Shown here piece by piece: positions 3,774 through 28,017 of a stretch of 31,145 bases of DNA (position 1 is its first letter; each line of letters begins with the position of its first letter). Origin of the DNA: a virus; the IMG/VR virus record IMGVR_UViG_3300020190_000244, positions 1 through 31,145 of that record. One strand, written 5' to 3'. A program made the position numbers and the translations under genes. Under the pieces are notes generated by a model that was not told where the DNA came from, made no database searches, and worked only from the letters and a program-made list of their open reading frames with translations.

Positions 3774-6293
3774 TTGACCCCGGAAATACTCTCAGCAAAT
3801 AAACCCAGCGAAGAAATCGCTATTGTGCCCCCTATTTACTATCTTTATGAAGAGGCTATTGCAGCCTCTACGGAATATTTTAGTGGAGACGATCTTGCGG
3901 CTCGTGTGTTCGTAGACAAGTACGCACTTAGAGATGGGGAGCAAAATCTCCTGGAGGCAACTCCAGATCAGATGCACCGTAGACTTGCTAAGGAATTTGC
4001 TCGCATTGAAAAGAACAAGTTCAAGCAACCTTACTCAGAGCAAGAGATTTTTAATGCTTTGAATAAGTTTAATCGCATCGTTGCACAGGGTAGCCCTATG
4101 TATGGCGTTGGCAATATGTATCAGACAATTAGTCTGAGTAACTGCTATGTGTTGCAAAGCCCTGAAGATTCATATTCGGGTATTTGCAGAGCGGACGAAG
4201 AGCTGGTTCAGATCAGCAAGCGTCGTGGAGGCTGCGGTCTAGATCTAGCCACACTACGCCCGGAGGGATCTCTGACTAAGAATGCTGCTCGCACCAGCAC
4301 AGGCACCATCCCGTTTGCAGAGCGGTTCTCCAACTCTATTCGTGAGGTTGGGCAAAACGGTCGTCGTGGCGCTCTGATGATTACGCAGTCAATTCAGCAT
4401 CCAGATGTCGAGGCGTTCATCAAGTGCAAGCGAGACCTAACAAAGGTCACAGGAGCTAATATTTCTGTACGCCTTTCTGATGAATTTCTCAATGCAGTTG
4501 AGCAAGGTAAGGATTACACACAGCAATGGCCTGCCGAAAATCCAAAAGTTAGTCGCAAGGTAAATGCTAGTAAGATTTGGGATATGCTAATTGAAGCAGC
4601 TCACGCTACGGCAGAGCCGGGCATGCTGATGTGGGATACGATTATTCGTGAAAGCATTCCAGATTGCTACGCTGACATGGGCTTTAAGACCATCTGCACG
4701 AACCCGTGTTCTGAGATTCCACTCTCTGCATACGATTCCTGCCGACTGATGCTGGTGAATGCTTATTCATACGTTAAGCAGCCATTTACCAAGGAAGCAA
4801 AGTTTGACTTTGAATCCTTCAAGCAGGACGCCTATATGTGCCAGCGCCTCATGGATGACATGGTCGATTTGGAACTAGAGTGTATTGATAAGATCCTCGA
4901 TAAGGTCTACAACGACCCTGAAGATCTTGAGCTAAAGGCCAGAGAGCTTACTCTTTGGAAGAAGATTCGTACAGCTGCGCACCACGGTCGTCGTACAGGC
5001 TCTGGTATGACCGCTATTGGCGATACTTTGGCCGCCCTTGGAGTCAGTTACGGTTCAAAGAGTGGTATTGCATTTATTGACGAAATCTACAAGCAGTTTA
5101 AGCTGGCTTGTTACCGCTCGTCCGTGGACATGGCCAAGGAGCTCGGCGCTTTCCCGATCTACGATAGTAATCGCGAAAGAAGTAATCCATTCCTATTGCG
5201 CATTGCTGCTGAGGATCCCGTACTGTATGAAGATATGAATAAATACGGCAGACGTAATATTGCCTTGCTCACTACAGCGCCTTGTGGTTCTGTGTCTATT
5301 CTTACCCAGACGAGCTCAGGCATTGAGCCTCAGTTTATGATTTCCCCCTATACCAGACGTAAAAAGGGCAATCCTGGTGACAATAATTTCCGTTCTGATT
5401 TTATAGATCAAAATGGAGATCACTGGATGGAATTTACAGTATATCCTCCAAAGATTTTAGAGTGGATGCGTATTACAGGAAAAACGGATCTAACTAAGAG
5501 TCCTTGGGCTGGGTCTACTGCTCTTGAGCTTGATTGGGAATCTCGAGTAAAGTTACAAGCCGCGGCGCAAAAGCACATCGATCATGCCATCAGTAGCACT
5601 ATCAATCTGCCAGCAGACACTTCCATTGAGACAATAAATAAGATTTATCTTAAGGCTTGGAAAGCTGGCTGCAAAGGCGTCACTATTTATCGAGACAACT
5701 GTCGTACCGGAGTGCTGGTGGCTAAGGAAGACAAGAAGACTAAAGACACTGGCTACAAGCGTCCTAATATTCTGACTTGCGAAGTACATCATCACACAGT
5801 TGGAGGCACTCCTTATTTTGTAATTGTCAGCACCCGTAATGGCTTACCCTATGAAATCTTTGCCGGGGTAAATCAAAACGAGGACTCTGATCCAATTATC
5901 CCCAAGCGCTTTAGGGGTGGCACTTTAACCAAAATGGGTAGGGGTCACTATAAAGGCGAGTTTATTGACAATAAAAATGAGGGAGAAATCTTAACCCTTA
6001 ATAAGCTGGGTAATCTTGTCTCAAGCGAAGAAAGTGCAATTACAAGACTTATCTCTACCGCTTTGAGACACGATGTGGGAGTACACTATATTGTGCATCA
6101 GCTTGAAAAAGTAAAAGGAGATATGTTCTCTTTTTCTAAAATTGTTGCTCGTGCACTAAAGAAGTACATTCCAGATGGCACAGAGGTTACTGGAGAAGTT
6201 TGTGAAACTTGTGAAACTAAAGATAAATGTATTTTAATTAGGCAGGAAGGGTGTGTTACCTGTAAATCCTGCGGTAGCAGTAAGTGTGGTTAA
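3774..6293 (+). CDS. nrdJ: Class II (adenosylcobalamin-dependent) ribonucleotide reductase
   Basis: Reduces ribonucleotides to deoxyribonucleotides, using the radical made by adenosylcobalamin, to feed phage DNA synthesis. The catalytic N-P-C-S-E motif is visible with Asn310, Cys312 and Glu314, the pattern N-C-E of RNR large subunits. Cys124 in the SNCYVL motif and Cys323 are candidates for the active-site redox pair. The T-A-P-C-G-S-V-S and S-G-I-E-P blocks typical of NrdJ follow. The C-terminus ends in CETC...C...CVTCKSCGSSKCG, the Cys-rich tail of class II enzymes. No NrdB-like radical subunit gene is seen nearby, which fits class II. The start is placed at TTG 3774 because CAGGAG lies 9 nt upstream; a TTG at 3753 would overlap the preceding gene and has no such site. 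Length (839 aa) is normal for the family. Confidence 0.93.
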   Translation: MTPEILSANKPSEEIAIVPPIYYLYEEAIAASTEYFSGDDLAARVFVDKYALRDGEQNLLEATPDQMHRRLAKEFARIEKNKFKQPYSEQEIFNALNKFNRIVAQGSPMYGVGNMYQTISLSNCYVLQSPEDSYSGICRADEELVQISKRRGGCGLDLATLRPEGSLTKNAARTSTGTIPFAERFSNSIREVGQNGRRGALMITQSIQHPDVEAFIKCKRDLTKVTGANISVRLSDEFLNAVEQGKDYTQQWPAENPKVSRKVNASKIWDMLIEAAHATAEPGMLMWDTIIRESIPDCYADMGFKTICTNPCSEIPLSAYDSCRLMLVNAYSYVKQPFTKEAKFDFESFKQDAYMCQRLMDDMVDLELECIDKILDKVYNDPEDLELKARELTLWKKIRTAAHHGRRTGSGMTAIGDTLAALGVSYGSKSGIAFIDEIYKQFKLACYRSSVDMAKELGAFPIYDSNRERSNPFLLRIAAEDPVLYEDMNKYGRRNIALLTTAPCGSVSILTQTSSGIEPQFMISPYTRRKKGNPGDNNFRSDFIDQNGDHWMEFTVYPPKILEWMRITGKTDLTKSPWAGSTALELDWESRVKLQAAAQKHIDHAISSTINLPADTSIETINKIYLKAWKAGCKGVTIYRDNCRTGVLVAKEDKKTKDTGYKRPNILTCEVHHHTVGGTPYFVIVSTRNGLPYEIFAGVNQNEDSDPIIPKRFRGGTLTKMGRGHYKGEFIDNKNEGEILTLNKLGNLVSSEESAITRLISTALRHDVGVHYIVHQLEKVKGDMFSFSKIVARALKKYIPDGTEVTGEVCETCETKDKCILIRQEGCVTCKSCGSSKCG

Positions 6294-12423: not shown

Positions 12424-13503
12424 ATGAGACACTGCAAGGAAGCAGTCGTCAAGCCGTTGTCTATTACAAAGGCATACGGTTACATCAATGAGTGGGGTGT
12501 TTCATATGCCGAAAAATTTAGGCATCGAAATGCTTTGTTCATTGGTTCAGCAGATACCACGGTATGCGCACTCATCATGCGCATGCCCAACGGTATTTCA
12601 GAAGCTTACTGTCTTTTCCACCATTGGACAGAAGGTGAAGATAAGCATCTTAATTTCTTCACTAGCGTGGCATCTTGCATTAATTTGGAAAAACAGGATG
12701 CACCTAAATGGTTCTTCGATGGAGAGCAAGTCGAGCTAAAGGAACTAGCTAAAACCAGTAATGAAGAAGCGGCTCAAAGGGCTAGAATGGTGGTGTCAGG
12801 ACTCCCAGCACTTGCCTGCCTGGCATACAAGTCTTACCTAATTAATGAGGCTTTTAGAAGTCCCAAATTTTGGGTGAATGAGCCAATTCTTATGGTACCT
12901 AAATCGTGTGGCAAAGTAGATATAGCTTTAAATGTAGTCGAGTCATTCTTGAGTTTTATTTGCTCAGGGATGGGCGGCTTAATGAGTCCAGCATACTTGC
13001 GCACAAGAGAGTTGGTGCATAGTTATGCGATTACTCCTTGGCAAATGTATTTAAATGCCGGCTGTGATCCAAAAATCATGATGTCCGACTTCGGCAAGAA
13101 GCAGGGCATGCTTGGTAAGTTGATTAAGGTTGTTTCTGATACTATTGAACAACCGATCGAAATGCTCGGAGTCAATCAGAGAAGTCTCCCTTTGTTACTA
13201 AGTCCAATACAAATCAAGGCATTCAAAGATTGTGTTCCTTGGTTTGTTATGGATGTAGATGGATATGTAGTGCCACAACATAAAGACTGTTTCCTCATGG
13301 GTCGGCGTATGGATACTTTCCAAACGCAGCACAAAAGCCATATAGCAGCGAGGCAATTGGGTTTCGAGATTCCAAATATTGAAGAGCTTCGGCAGCAAAC
13401 GCGTTCTGCCGAGACTCCAAATCAAAAAGCCCCGCTGGTAGTAGAATTGAAAACCCCTGCACAGATAACCCCTGTTGTAGAACTGGAGTCCAGTAAGACT
13501 TAA
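12424..13503 (+). CDS. Unknown 359-residue protein
   Basis: The start is placed at ATG 12424 because a strong SD (AGAGGTG) lies just upstream; an in-frame ATG at 12340 lies inside a leader hairpin. The protein is mixed alpha/beta and has no Walker or nuclease motif that I can see. The middle contains hydrophobic helices (LPALACLAYKSYLINEAF, ALNVVESFLSFICSGMGG) that look buried rather than membrane-spanning. The C-terminal ~40 residues are Pro, Thr and Val-rich with a repeated V-V-E-L-(K/E) pattern. A strong terminator follows at 13525, so the gene seems to end a transcription unit. Confidence 0.72.
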   Translation: MRHCKEAVVKPLSITKAYGYINEWGVSYAEKFRHRNALFIGSADTTVCALIMRMPNGISEAYCLFHHWTEGEDKHLNFFTSVASCINLEKQDAPKWFFDGEQVELKELAKTSNEEAAQRARMVVSGLPALACLAYKSYLINEAFRSPKFWVNEPILMVPKSCGKVDIALNVVESFLSFICSGMGGLMSPAYLRTRELVHSYAITPWQMYLNAGCDPKIMMSDFGKKQGMLGKLIKVVSDTIEQPIEMLGVNQRSLPLLLSPIQIKAFKDCVPWFVMDVDGYVVPQHKDCFLMGRRMDTFQTQHKSHIAARQLGFEIPNIEELRQQTRSAETPNQKAPLVVELKTPAQITPVVELESSKT

Positions 13504-21997: not shown

Positions 21998-22054
21998 GAG
22001 GATCTATAGGTATTCCAGCAACTCTGCTGGACCGCCAAAACAATTTAGATCCTT
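21998..22054 (+). promoter_or_regulatory. Two-stem leader RNA element, copy 1
   Basis: Outer stem GAGGATCTA/TAGATCCTT (21998-22006 with 22046-22054), then TAGGTAT, an inner 7-bp hairpin TCCAGCA-ACTC-TGCTGGA (22014-22031), then CCGCCAAAACAAT. It ends 17 nt before the GTG of the membrane-protein gene at 22072. The region just upstream has TTGCGGTATATATATATAG, a likely promoter. Copies 2 and 3 keep the single-stranded segments AGGTATT and GCCAAAAYAAT while the stems change together. Confidence 0.75.
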
Positions 22055-22651: not shown

Positions 22652-22708
22652 GAGGATCTATAGGTATTCCAGCAACTCTGCTGGATCGCCAAAATAATGT
22701 AGATCCTC
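22652..22708 (+). promoter_or_regulatory. Two-stem leader RNA element, copy 2
   Basis: Outer 9-bp stem GAGGATCTA/TAGATCCTC (22652-22660 with 22700-22708), the same inner hairpin as copy 1 (22668-22685), and the conserved AGGTATT and GCCAAAATAAT segments. The last outer pair is G-C here and G-U in copy 1. It lies 17 nt before the GTG at 22726 and is preceded by the same TTGCGGTAT...ATATAG promoter-like sequence as copy 1. Confidence 0.75.
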
Positions 22709-23584: not shown

Positions 23585-23638
23585 AAGACCCATAGGTATT
23601 CCATTGCGTAAATGGATTGCCAAAACAATATGGGTCTT
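23585..23638 (+). promoter_or_regulatory. Two-stem leader RNA element, copy 3 (covaried)
   Basis: Outer 10-bp stem AAGACCCATA/TATGGGTCTT (23585-23594 with 23629-23638) and inner hairpin TCCATT-GCGTA-AATGGA (23600-23616). Both stems differ in sequence from copies 1 and 2 yet remain fully paired, while AGGTATT and GCCAAAACAAT are unchanged. The 3' end of the outer stem lies 3-4 nt from the SD AAAGGAG of the gene at 23650. Confidence 0.78.
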
Positions 23639-24695: not shown

Positions 24696-24755
24696 ATGCA
24701 GGTTAATATGATTTATAAAGAGTTCATCAGAGCTTTTAATTTAGGTATGAACTAA
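24696..24755 (+). CDS. Possible 19-codon leader frame
   Basis: A short frame from ATG 24696 (alternative ATG 24708) to TAA 24753-24755, the last base of which is the A of the next gene's ATG (TAATG). Such overlaps usually mean translational coupling. The peptide (MQVNMIYKEFIRAFNLGMN) has no recognised function, and the SD is weak. It may be a leader peptide or chance. Confidence 0.3.
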   Translation: MQVNMIYKEFIRAFNLGMN

Positions 24756-24958
24756 TGGGTAGACGAAAAAAAGAAAACTGCTTCCCGTATACTGACATTG
24801 TCATATCTACTTATATTAAAAAGCAGGATTATCATCAGGCACAACTTCGGTATTCAAACAATATTGGAGTAAATCCTGCTATTAACTTTAATACAGATGA
24901 ATCAGCAGAAGAAAATGTGGATTATTTTGATCAATTTGATGAGGATTATGGGGACTAA
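24755..24958 (+). CDS. Unknown small protein (67 residues)
   Basis: Starts at ATG 24755 with TTTAGG about 11 nt upstream. The N-terminus is basic (GRRKKENCF), the middle Tyr/Gln-rich and the last 20 residues strongly acidic (ESAEENVDYFDQFDEDYGD). No motif recognised. It is the last gene before the long non-coding region. Confidence 0.55.
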   Translation: MGRRKKENCFPYTDIVISTYIKKQDYHQAQLRYSNNIGVNPAINFNTDESAEENVDYFDQFDEDYGD

Positions 24959-25213
24959 AATACCCCAATATACATGGTAATATGATATATCCCCCGCTAA
25001 TAGCTCTTACCCGACCATAATAGGATGCCAGAGTCCGTACAACTCTGCATCCAAACGGCAGACGATTTTTCCAGTTATTGTCATCTGTAGCAACTAGGTG
25101 GGCTAGCCTATCTAGTAACTGGTGGGAGGTGCGTACCAAAGATTCGCATCTGAGTTCTAGTAACCTGTAGCACGGTTGAGGTGAAAGAACGAGAAAAAGG
25201 TTAAATCGTGCGT

Positions 25214-25241
25214 CCCACATAGATCGGCAGGTCTGTGTGGG
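25214..25241 (+). repeat. 28-nt hairpin repeat, copy A
   Basis: CCCACATAGATC-GGCA-GGTCTGTGTGGG folds into a 12-bp stem (with G-U pairs) and a tetraloop, followed by CTTTTC. Nearly identical copies lie at 25411 and 25520. Confidence 0.85.
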
Positions 25242-25410
25242 CTTTTCTTCGACGATAGGGTGCAGAAAGATTTACTTGCCGAAAGGAAGAATAATCTTCC
25301 CTGCACCTGAATGGTGGGCATCTTTCGTTGATTTTTGTTGCCCATGTATTGCAAATCAACGGCTTGTTGTGTGCCAAAACGCAATGCTGTGCGGGTATCA
25401 GCACAGTAAA

Positions 25411-25438
25411 CCCACATAGATCGACGGGTCTGTGTGGG
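25411..25438 (+). repeat. 28-nt hairpin repeat, copy B
   Basis: Same stem as copy A with loop GACG, preceded by CAGTAAA and followed by TGTGGGTTTTTA. It differs from copy A only in the loop. Confidence 0.85.
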
Positions 25439-25519
25439 TGTGGGTTTTTAATCCCACTTCAGCTGAAGACTTAACCCACTTCAACGGCTGTGACAAAACC
25501 ATGTGGGTTTAAACAGTAA

Positions 25520-25547
25520 CCCACACAGATCGACAGGTCTGTGTGGG
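25520..25547 (+). repeat. 28-nt hairpin repeat, copy C
   Basis: Same hairpin with loop GACA. One G-U pair of copies A and B is replaced by a C-G pair, which keeps the structure. It is preceded by CAGTAA, as in copy B, and followed by TTTTC. Confidence 0.85.
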
Positions 25548-25594
25548 TTTTCAAACTTTCTCAAGAGGAGAACTGCTGCAGCAGGAAGAACCTC

Positions 25595-25633
25595 TACTCG
25601 ACTATGCGAGTATAAATAGGTATTAGGCATAGT
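25595..25633 (+). ncRNA. H-type pseudoknot 1
   Basis: TACTCG (25595-25600) and CGAGTA (25607-25612) form a hairpin whose loop ACTATG(C) (25601-25607) is the exact complement of GCATAGT (25627-25633) downstream. It overlaps TATAAATA at 25611-25618. Confidence 0.5.
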
Positions 25634-25681
25634 GCGTTTATGTAAATCTACGAATTTACATTAAGGTTACTCTAGTCACAG

Positions 25682-25733
25682 CTTGAGGGCTACGAAGAAG
25701 TGAAACAACTTCGGTGTGCCCTAGTTTCACAAG
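25682..25733 (+). ncRNA. H-type pseudoknot 2
   Basis: AGGGC (25686-25690) pairs with GCCCT (25718-25722) and encloses CGAAG/CTTCG (25693-25697 with 25709-25713). The loop GTGAAAC (25700-25706) is the exact complement of GTTTCAC (25724-25730). Nested stems and a 7-bp pseudoknot helix are unlikely by chance. Confidence 0.6.
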
Positions 25734-25811
25734 ACTCATGACTAACTGACAGATGTAGCTCAGGGTCCCTACCTTTGTTAGAATTGAGGAACAATATGAG
25801 ACCTTACATGG

Positions 25812-25844
25812 GCACACTGTGGGGAAACCCACAGTGTGCTTTTT
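25812..25844 (+). terminator. Strong intrinsic terminator
   Basis: GCACACTGTGGG (25812-25823) and CCCACAGTGTGC (25828-25839) form a perfect 12-bp stem with a GAAA loop, then TTTTT. It ends the structured non-coding region before the gene at 25916. Confidence 0.95.
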
Positions 25845-25915
25845 CTTTGGTGTGGTGATCTTATGTACCGTGTAATACGGATTGTTTGGTGTGTCGTCTT
25901 TTCAGGAGAATCAAC

Positions 25916-26215
25916 ATGAGTGAAAAGCTTCTCAAAAATACCTATCAGTCATACAATATTCTCTGTGCAGAGATTGACTATATGGAAATGGTTATCAGGG
26001 GCAACGAGTGTCGAGAGAATCCCTCCACTGATAATCTTCTTGAGCTCAAGAATCTACGCATGATATTGGAGGACCTTCAACAGAGTCGTATATCGGCTCT
26101 TAAGTTGCATAAGTTAAATGTCTCAATCTCCAATCGACTGAAAAAAATGAATAGATGGCATATGTTTAATCAATGGACATCACAGAAACAACAAAACAGC
26201 ACGACTTATTGGTGA
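25916..26215 (+). CDS. Unknown helical protein (99 residues)
   Basis: The start is set at ATG 25916, with AGGAG 9-10 nt upstream (TTTTCAGGAGAATCAAC); an in-frame ATG at 25886 has no SD. The product is almost wholly helical (LLKNTYQSYNILCAEIDYME ... NLLELKNLRMILEDLQQSRI), probably a coiled coil, with a basic, Trp- and Gln-rich C-terminus. It stands alone between non-coding regions. Family unknown. Confidence 0.62.
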   Translation: MSEKLLKNTYQSYNILCAEIDYMEMVIRGNECRENPSTDNLLELKNLRMILEDLQQSRISALKLHKLNVSISNRLKKMNRWHMFNQWTSQKQQNSTTYW

Positions 26216-26270
26216 TAAAGACAGTTTCGATTGTCCTCTTTTGAGGCGGGCTACTGAGCGAGCAAATATG

Positions 26271-26344
26271 GGGCCGGTAGCTCAGCGGTCTAGAGCCATC
26301 GACTCATAATCGATCCGGCGTGGGTTCGAATCCCACCCGGCCCA
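26271..26344 (+). tRNA. tRNA with anticodon CAT (probably Ile2, else elongator Met)
   Basis: A full 74-nt cloverleaf: 7-bp acceptor stem GGGCCGG/CCGGCCC, D stem GCTC/GAGC, anticodon stem ATCGA/TCGAT with loop CTCATAA, 5-nt variable loop and T stem GTGGG/CCCAC with loop TTCGAAT; the discriminator is A26344. CCA is not encoded. It lacks the unpaired first base and the three G-C pairs of initiator tRNA. C4-G69 and C5-G68 and the G-A before CTCATAA resemble the bacterial tRNA-Ile2 read as AUA after lysidine modification by host TilS. Elongator Met cannot be excluded. Confidence 0.93.
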
Positions 26345-26360
26345 TTTTGTAGAATACCTC

Positions 26361-26402
26361 GAATACCCTCACCTGTTGATTTCACAATCTGAGCGAGGGT
26401 TT
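26361..26402 (+). repeat. Hairpin with TTGATTTCAC loop, copy 1
   Basis: ACCCTC (26365-26370) pairs with GAGGGT (26395-26400). The apex TGTTGATTTCACAATC can form GATT-TCAC-AATC. It shares its sequence and layout with 26533-26576, though its lower stem has mismatches. Confidence 0.65.
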
Positions 26403-26532
26403 AGAGCAAAACTCGGCCAGGTAGGGCTTGCGGCCTGATCCTGCCAGCGCTGTTCTCTGTCGCTCAGAGACTCCACAGACCCCGCTGCTGGGGCCCCATC
26501 CGCAAGAGGGGGCGGCGCTTCTATAGTCCCCC
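26400..26532. other. GC-rich structured stretch, no gene seen
   Basis: Between the two TTGATTTCAC hairpins lies about 130 nt far richer in G and C than the surroundings. It has local pairing such as GGCCAGG/CCTGCC and CCCC-GCTGCT-GGGG but no convincing reading frame on either strand. It may be part of one RNA with the flanking hairpins. Confidence 0.4.
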
Positions 26533-26576
26533 GGAATGCCCTTGCCCGTTGATTTCACGATCCGGGCAAGGGTTCC
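26533..26576 (+). repeat. Hairpin with TTGATTTCAC loop, copy 2
   Basis: A perfect 9-bp stem CCCTTGCCC/GGGCAAGGG (26539-26547 with 26564-26572), extended by GGAA/TTCC, carries the loop GTTGATTTCACGATCC. The loop matches copy 1 at nearly every position while the stem sequence differs, which argues for conserved RNA structure or a protein target. Confidence 0.7.
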
Positions 26577-26603
26577 TTTGCTAAAGTCATTCTCTCTTGT
26601 TCG

Positions 26604-26637
26604 CCTAAAATCCAATAAGTTCGGATTTTAGGTTTTT
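26604..26637 (+). terminator. Intrinsic terminator
   Basis: CCTAAAATCC (26604-26613) and GGATTTTAGG (26623-26632) form a 10-bp stem followed by TTTTT. It separates the tRNA region from the lysozyme gene. Confidence 0.88.
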
Positions 26638-26638
26638 G

Positions 26639-26680
26639 CCTGTGGGGCGTTCCCTCAGGTATTTTTCTCAACACACAGGA
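26639..26680 (+). promoter_or_regulatory. Leader that may hide the lysozyme SD
   Basis: CCTGTG (26639-26644) can pair with CACAGG (26674-26679), which contains the SD of the lysozyme gene (CAGGA). A small GGG-CGTT-CCC hairpin and an AGGTATT segment lie between them. This would lower translation until melted. The helix is short, so this is tentative. Confidence 0.35.
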
Positions 26681-26690
26681 AACAAATGCA

Positions 26691-27110
26691 ATGAAACCTG
26701 TAGGTAAACTTATCGTAGCGATGCTGCTGTATGTCGCTGTCCCCGCCCAGGCTCAGACCTGGGACACCTTTCTGGATGCAATCCAAAAGGTGGAGACCGG
26801 TGCAGAAAAGAATCCCAACACCGCTGTTGGCGATAATGGCAAGGCCCTTGGTGCGTATCAAATTTGGTACGATTATTGGGCGGATGCCGTTGAGCGCTCA
26901 CCTGAGCTAAAAGCTCAGGGCTATGAGGCGGTTAAAGACCCCATCTATGCTAGGAAAATAATCCGAGCATACATGGACAGATACGCTCCTAAGAATGCCA
27001 CGTGGGAGGAGCGAGCGCGAATTCACAATGGTGGTCCCAAAGGCCATCGTAAGTCTGCCACTAAAGCTTACTGGACCAAGGTGCAAAAGCACCTTAAGGA
27101 GGCAAAGTAA
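26691..27110 (+). CDS. Destabilase / i-type lysozyme with signal peptide (endolysin candidate)
   Basis: A protein of 139 residues. Residues 1-21 are a signal peptide ending P-A-Q-A. The rest follows invertebrate-type (destabilase) lysozyme: A-I-Q-K-V-E35-T-G, then G-D48-N-G-K-A-L-G-A-Y-Q-I, IIRAYMDRYA and the hallmark ARIHNGGPKG near residue 115, ending in AYWTKVQKHL. Glu35 and Asp48 match the spacing of the two catalytic acids of i-type lysozymes. It lacks the many Cys residues of animal forms. It would cut peptidoglycan, exported by the host Sec path, and so is a candidate signal-type endolysin. SD CAGGA lies 11 nt before ATG 26691. No holin is adjacent. Confidence 0.85.
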   Translation: MKPVGKLIVAMLLYVAVPAQAQTWDTFLDAIQKVETGAEKNPNTAVGDNGKALGAYQIWYDYWADAVERSPELKAQGYEAVKDPIYARKIIRAYMDRYAPKNATWEERARIHNGGPKGHRKSATKAYWTKVQKHLKEAK

Positions 27111-27899: not shown

Positions 27900-28017
27900 A
27901 AAAAACCAGTAGTGACGTTTGCTATGTAATATCGTGCTCTATTTATAATACTTATCTAATAGTGTATACTCTGTTCAAGTAATACTCTAACATAGCAAAC
28001 GTCACTACTGGTTTTTT
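27900..28017. repeat. 28-bp perfect inverted repeat enclosing 62 bp
   Basis: The arm 27900-27927 (starting AAAAAACCAGTAGTGACG) is the exact reverse complement of 27990-28017. The 62-bp spacer is AT-rich and has no gene. As RNA it would be a very long hairpin ending in a run of T, like a terminator with a large loop. As DNA it resembles a 118-bp MITE-like element with terminal inverted repeats. No clear target-site duplication is seen. Confidence 0.85.

Follow-up and report, generated by a model that had tools for sequence, protein, structure and literature searches.

Positions 25596-25846 of the window (the whole 31,145-base stretch of DNA that we analyzed) are a Pistol self-cleaving ribozyme joined to a highly conserved RNA that contains two pseudoknots and has no entry in Rfam. 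We estimate a probability of roughly 0.6 that the two form an undescribed family of phage non-coding RNAs, in which the RNA is a dedicated partner of the Pistol ribozyme and obtains its own 5' end by cleavage. Our analysis shows directly that the ribozyme belongs to the Pistol family, that the domain and its pairing are conserved, that ribozyme and domain are constantly linked, and that the unit has its own terminator. To our knowledge, no role has been established in phages for Pistol and other small self-cleaving ribozymes. With a conserved RNA domain constantly right behind it, a Pistol has a defined product with predicted ends to look for, and its role can be tested by in vitro cleavage assays and RNA sequencing specific for 5'-OH ends.

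The window is an IMG/VR viral contig, a fragment of an uncultured phage genome. It encodes a ribonucleotide reductase, a RuvC-like nuclease, a portal-like protein, a metallophosphoesterase, and a tRNA-Met. Two other contigs (L002 and L003) are near-identical to it, and we found sister lineages whose metallophosphoesterase is 71-99% identical. The features that we discuss are listed in Table 1.

Table 1. Coordinates of features in the window, with the evidence for each.
Feature	Position	Strand	Evidence or remarks
Conserved block (GGTAAYATGAYATA-like core), candidate transcription start region	24964-24991	+	Kept in related lineages
Lineage-specific array of stable hairpins	24985-25595	+	z = -10.2 alone (24985-25590)
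Repeat hairpin copy 1, Pistol P3-like	25214-25241	+	GUGCGU on its 5' side, as in Pistol; tail resembles a terminator
Repeat hairpin copy 2, Pistol P3-like	25411-25438	+	L028 equivalent follows an altered Pistol 5' half
Repeat hairpin copy 3, Pistol P3-like	25520-25547	+	Repeat comparison, P3 match
Pistol self-cleaving ribozyme	25596-25671	+	RF02679, 53.6 bits (gathering score 34.5)
Double-pseudoknot domain with terminator, predicted mature small RNA	25672-25846	+	Model R1; covariation; z = -4.5
Outer stem S1a	25682-25685/25730-25733	+	6 families, 6 different helices, all paired
Hairpin S3	25693-25697/25709-25713	+	100% of cells paired (alignment-wide; mutually related contigs count more than once); both-sided changes in 4/5 pairs
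Pseudoknot PK2	GUGAAAC 25700-25706 / GUUUCAC 25724-25730	+	99% paired in 16 sequences (alignment-wide, as for S3); nearly invariant
Hairpin S4	25755-25758/25769-25772	+	8 families, 8 different 5' strands, 32/32 pairs
Pseudoknot PK3	S4 loop AGGGUC 25762-25767 / GACCUU 25800-25805	+	40/40 pairs, 8 families
Intrinsic terminator closing the unit	25810-25846	+	14-bp stem 25810-25841 and U-tract
tRNA-Met (CAU)	26271-26344	+	Context only

The unit lies at the 3' end of a larger region (24985-25850), which a preliminary description had read as a densely structured non-coding RNA with no believable genes. That reading is supported. The sole plus-strand open reading frame of at least 60 amino acids inside the region is a 60-amino-acid frame with a GTG start, and the folding energy of the 866 nt is -325 kcal/mol (z = -10.6 versus 20 shuffles). 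Conservation among homologues, which we checked for codon-type versus paired patterns, is of the paired kind. The thrice-repeated hairpin and the final terminator that were described are both present (Table 1), with the hairpin copies at 84-91% identity to the first. Comparison among relatives supports three pseudoknots, each of them in the 3' part: the Pistol's own and two in the domain that follows. Folding energy alone is not distinctive, because among the window's 71 blocks of 433 nt the two halves of the region come only 7th and 8th (z = -4.8 each; the mean of the other blocks is -1.7, and six score lower than both halves). Overall, the region is mosaic in nature, with 600 nt of lineage-specific array followed by the conserved unit of 250 nt.

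We compared the region to all of Rfam 15, and the Pistol ribozyme was the one match above threshold; no large RNA of any family matched, even at E = 10. The alignment covers the full length of the model (1-68) and includes P1, P2, P3, and the P1-loop pseudoknot (ACUAUGC at 25601-25607 with GCAUAGU at 25627-25633). Residue roles in Pistol were taken from PMC6154101 and PMC4604425. By alignment, the equivalents of purine 32, G40, and G42 are G25626, G25634, and G25636, and the two-nucleotide G-U junction is G25666-U25667. (Mutation of G40 or G42 considerably lowers cleavage; PMC6154101.) Pistol cuts between the two junction nucleotides (PMC4604425, PMC6154101), so the predicted cut in the window is at G25666/U25667. 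Pistol ribozymes were already known to occur near phage genes (PMC4604425). Thus, both the sequence and the structure are those of a Pistol; what differs is the constant coupling to a conserved double-pseudoknot domain and a terminator, which is absent from the Rfam description.

The domain is 175 nt long and lies directly 3' of the ribozyme. It consists of an outer stem, a hairpin (S3) with pseudoknot PK2, a hairpin (S4) with pseudoknot PK3, and the terminator. Across the family, the S3 loop (UGAAAC) pairs with a downstream GUUUCA to form PK2, and the S4 loop pairs with the five to seven bases just before the motif ACAUGGG to form PK3. A hairpin with a U-tract closes the unit in every family seen. 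We found no such domain in Rfam 15, which is our sole measure of whether it has been described before.

We have several lines of evidence for this architecture. First, with strands identified by hand in six to eight families, all expected pairs form (24/24 for S1a, 35/35 for S3, 32/32 for S4, and 40/40 for PK3). Swapping strands among the families destroys the pairing: counting the true order, the permutations that pair as well are 1/720 for S1a, 1/5040 for S3, 1/40320 for S4, and 12/40320 for PK3. (The permuted strands are the best helices of each family, and these numbers test the swapping and not the choice of strands.) Second, in a MAFFT alignment with no hand placement, RNAalifold again gives S3 and, independently, PK3; it predicts 23 pairs, of which 17 change on both sides. 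The covariation score of this alignment is 0.297, versus 0.145 for shuffled versions and at most 0.170 for slid versions. The aligner misregistered the columns of S4 and the terminator in the alignment-wide count, and the count for S4 in Table 1 is by family. PK2 is probably a genuine pairing given its conservation and one family (L033) that re-pairs it as UGAAC/GUUCA. Overall, the unit has three predicted pseudoknots (the Pistol's, PK2, and PK3), two of which covary strongly, and offers a new RNA family for structural work.

We then asked how constant the link to the ribozyme is. We scanned 2.9 million viral contigs with a 20-base segment of the Pistol's P1 and obtained 39 contigs, in a subset of which the Pistol is followed by a homologue of 25672-25846. 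A covariance model (R1), built from nine sequences, detects the domain at 22 loci; the phage contigs that carry it are divergent, and compensatory changes are extensive. The 22 include six diverged loci from outside the training set (L033, L049, L051, L054, L062, and L063; E = 6e-5 to 1e-3), and in all six the match is directly 3' of a Pistol. (Matches to R1 at E = 0.001-0.1 away from Pistols were left uncounted, including those in L042, L054, L062, L063, L059, L164, and L166. We read four of these regions, in L042, L059, L062, and L063; what they share is mainly the terminator hairpin.)

We also ran a scan that was blind to the ribozyme, with a pattern of just PK2 and ACAUGGG. Among its 26 contigs, 17 have true copies: 12 by running R1 on the locus, and five that are identical, or almost so, to the copy in the window or in L028. 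A Pistol lies directly upstream of each of the 17, while the nine chance matches have neither a Pistol nor the domain. This implies that the coupling is not an artefact of searching with Pistol. Six of the true copies are new, and in four of these (L168/L172 and L173/L177) the loops of the Pistol are altered and the partner strand has changed to match, so that its pseudoknot is re-paired. (Two other Pistols, in L006 and L023, have an insertion within the core and may cut poorly.) On comparative grounds, the ribozyme and the double-pseudoknot domain are one conserved unit.

The unit has no match in named phages or plasmids, and every carrier is an uncultured contig. The P1 20-mer is present in two metagenome-assembled genomes from GTDB, and by eye, the next 380 nt of these do not contain the double-pseudoknot domain. 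Nor do Pistols in general seem to head structured RNAs: for 92 non-redundant Pistols, the downstream RNA (median z = -1.3) folds no more stably than controls taken upstream or far away (p = 0.19). We therefore restrict our claim to the Pistols of the double-pseudoknot family. Other sequences do recur behind Pistols in phage contigs, and these are possibly further pairs of ribozyme and RNA: one set has TAGTTAAAAAACG (L114, L121, L124, and L137) and a second has AGGAACGCGCCC (L072, L086, L111, L127, and L136). L072 also has a phage tmRNA (2145-3011) about 400 nt 3' of its Pistol.

What might the unit do? In distant copies, homology starts at Pistol P1 and stops at the terminator (25597-25850 between the window and L028; 1-228 between L055 and L058), and only the last ~250 nt persist in relatives, with different sequence upstream and downstream. 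The genes 3' of the unit differ among lineages, and the unit is at different loci in the window and in L028. In L028, about a dozen nucleotides separate an upstream terminator from the Pistol, which leaves no space for a promoter. These three features (boundaries at the Pistol and the terminator, differing neighbors, and the gap in L028) favor a separately acting RNA that is cut from longer transcripts. We lean, by a little, towards the view that the 3' 250 nt are a self-processing small RNA gene of the phage, whose product would act separately in trans or as a decoy.

We infer the cleavage, the mature ends, the stability, and the trans role of this RNA as follows. A transcript through the locus would fold the Pistol, which would cut at G25666/U25667. 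The upstream array would be left with a 2',3'-cyclic phosphate end, and an RNA of ~180 nt would be released, with a 5'-OH start, the two pseudoknots, and its own terminator as the 3' end. The ribozyme would fix the 5' terminus with no need for a promoter or a host nuclease. A 5'-OH and terminal hairpins prolong the life of an RNA, so the released RNA should be long-lived, and it would then act as a separate trans-acting or decoy RNA.

The main rival to a separately acting RNA is a role in cis, with the ribozyme and domain forming a 5' UTR that controls or stabilizes the mRNA of the gene past the terminator (a ligand or a protein might, for example, decide between termination and read-through). 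We consider this unlikely. In its favor, a terminator behind a complex fold is typical of attenuators, and most copies have a small open reading frame 3' of the terminator. In L033, L042, and L063, these frames are similar and acidic, which counts against a trans-acting RNA, and the role could be in cis there. The next genes are otherwise unrelated among lineages, however, and in L055 the unit is followed by ~600 nt more of apparently non-coding RNA. Also, a brief look for alternative antiterminator pairings turned up none.

The 5' array has a different history from the unit. The segment 25402-25633 is shared with L028 at 97% identity (its 5' part also with L029); outside it, the array is shared only with near-identical contigs, and 25000-25400 is private to this phage among the sequences searched. 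Intact Pistols in L050, L051, L054, and L062 have a P3 stem-loop that the repeat hairpins match, and a degenerate pattern for these hairpins matches 8 of the 2.9 million contigs, all with Pistol P1. In L028, the hairpin lies 3' of Pistol 5' halves in which ACAU replaces GCGU, a change that alters the equivalents of G40 and G42. We considered whether copy 1 is a complete Pistol: GUGCGU and P3 are present, but P1 and P2 are unrecognizable and Rfam reports nothing, so we call it P3-like only. As for the window's Pistol, it equals the copy at 14056 in L028 up to GCAUAGU and thereafter resembles the copy at 12554. Most simply, it would have arisen by recombination inside the ribozyme, and the array appears to be a lineage-specific mosaic whose pieces have been exchanged at Pistol sequences.

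These exchanges might suggest a mobile or recombining element, whose repeats (Pistol units and P3 hairpins) spread through the phage genome and serve no function in the carrier. L028 has the unit in another place and two further Pistol 5' halves (those with ACAU) around a 237-bp segment, and the window's Pistol joins two L028 types. We nevertheless regard a functionless element as quite improbable, since compensatory change keeps the domain across very divergent phages, which needs selection on the RNA. We saw neither a transposase nor a target duplication.

Upstream of the array, the block at 24964-24991 is common to sister phage lineages that have different RNAs 3' of it. It has no sigma-70 match but may serve as a promoter. 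A shared block with differing cargo points to a hotspot for structured RNA, rather than to one conserved long RNA. Sister phages have another long, apparently non-coding RNA (L005:6384-7108, L007:9604-10330, L010:9532-10018, and L004:9380-9560), which is flanked by the same gene on one side and the same tRNA on the other and has a strongly conserved GGUUGCACCUCG...CGCAACAAAG core. Except for the tRNA, these loci have no Rfam match above threshold.

The preliminary description had proposed a large ornate RNA close to a tRNA gene, either GOLLD or ROOL or a new class. GOLLD and ROOL resemble the region in being phage-borne, structured, near tRNA genes, and of the size of the whole region, but neither model matches (24700-26700, E ≤ 10), and the conserved unit here is just 250 nt, with a predicted self-cleavage site. 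A new class is supported for the 3' unit. The closeness to a tRNA is loosely true: tRNA-Met lies 420 nt beyond the region, with a 99-codon frame in between. Could the region still be a single ~860-nt RNA of this kind, multimeric, with the Pistol and domain as its conserved 3' end? The dense structure throughout and the nearby tRNA would fit, as would a variable 5' part and a conserved 3' part, as described for GOLLD (PMC12286853). But a predicted cleavage site lies inside, two internal hairpins are terminator-like, relatives have the 3' unit with no 5' array at all, and GOLLD and ROOL do not match. We consider such an RNA the least probable of these alternatives.

Theta ribozymes are proposed to make the 3' ends of tRNAs in phages (PMC10879173). 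This is similar in that a phage ribozyme makes the end of another RNA, but theta ribozymes are of another class, and the window's Pistol would make a 5' end, of a partner that is not a tRNA. We looked for a theta ribozyme with the tRNA (HDV-like, cutting at most 5 nt from the tRNA's 3' end) and found only the Pistol, whose predicted cut is ~600 nt upstream of tRNA-Met. The manA (RF01745) and LOOT (RF03000) RNAs are also complex and structured, but neither matches in the window. LOOT has one weak match, in L055 (22.6 versus 46.4 bits), which did not recur when the full records of ten carriers were searched. L055 also has a manA-like RNA (3926-4102) directly 3' of its Pistol unit; the match scores 38.8 bits and so falls short of the 55.2-bit gathering score.

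The window contains other structured elements. Shortly 3' of the tRNA are two 41-nt direct repeats (26361-26401 and 26534-26574; 80% identical), each of which forms a hairpin. An inverted repeat at 27904-28016, with arms of ~28 bases (AAAACCAGTAGTGACGTTTGCTATGT) and an AT-rich center, sits in a non-coding stretch with a folding z of -11.6. Finally, three small genes are each preceded by a structured leader (22006-22044, 22660-22698, and ~23585-23635) of the form AUAGGUAUUCC-hairpin-GGANYGCCAAAACAAU, enclosed by an outer stem. These leaders have no Rfam match in the window. The outer stems vary among copies with pairing kept (GAUCUA/UAGAUC or ACCCAUA/UAUGGGU), and similar leaders are found in L004, L006, L010, L023, L024, and L028.
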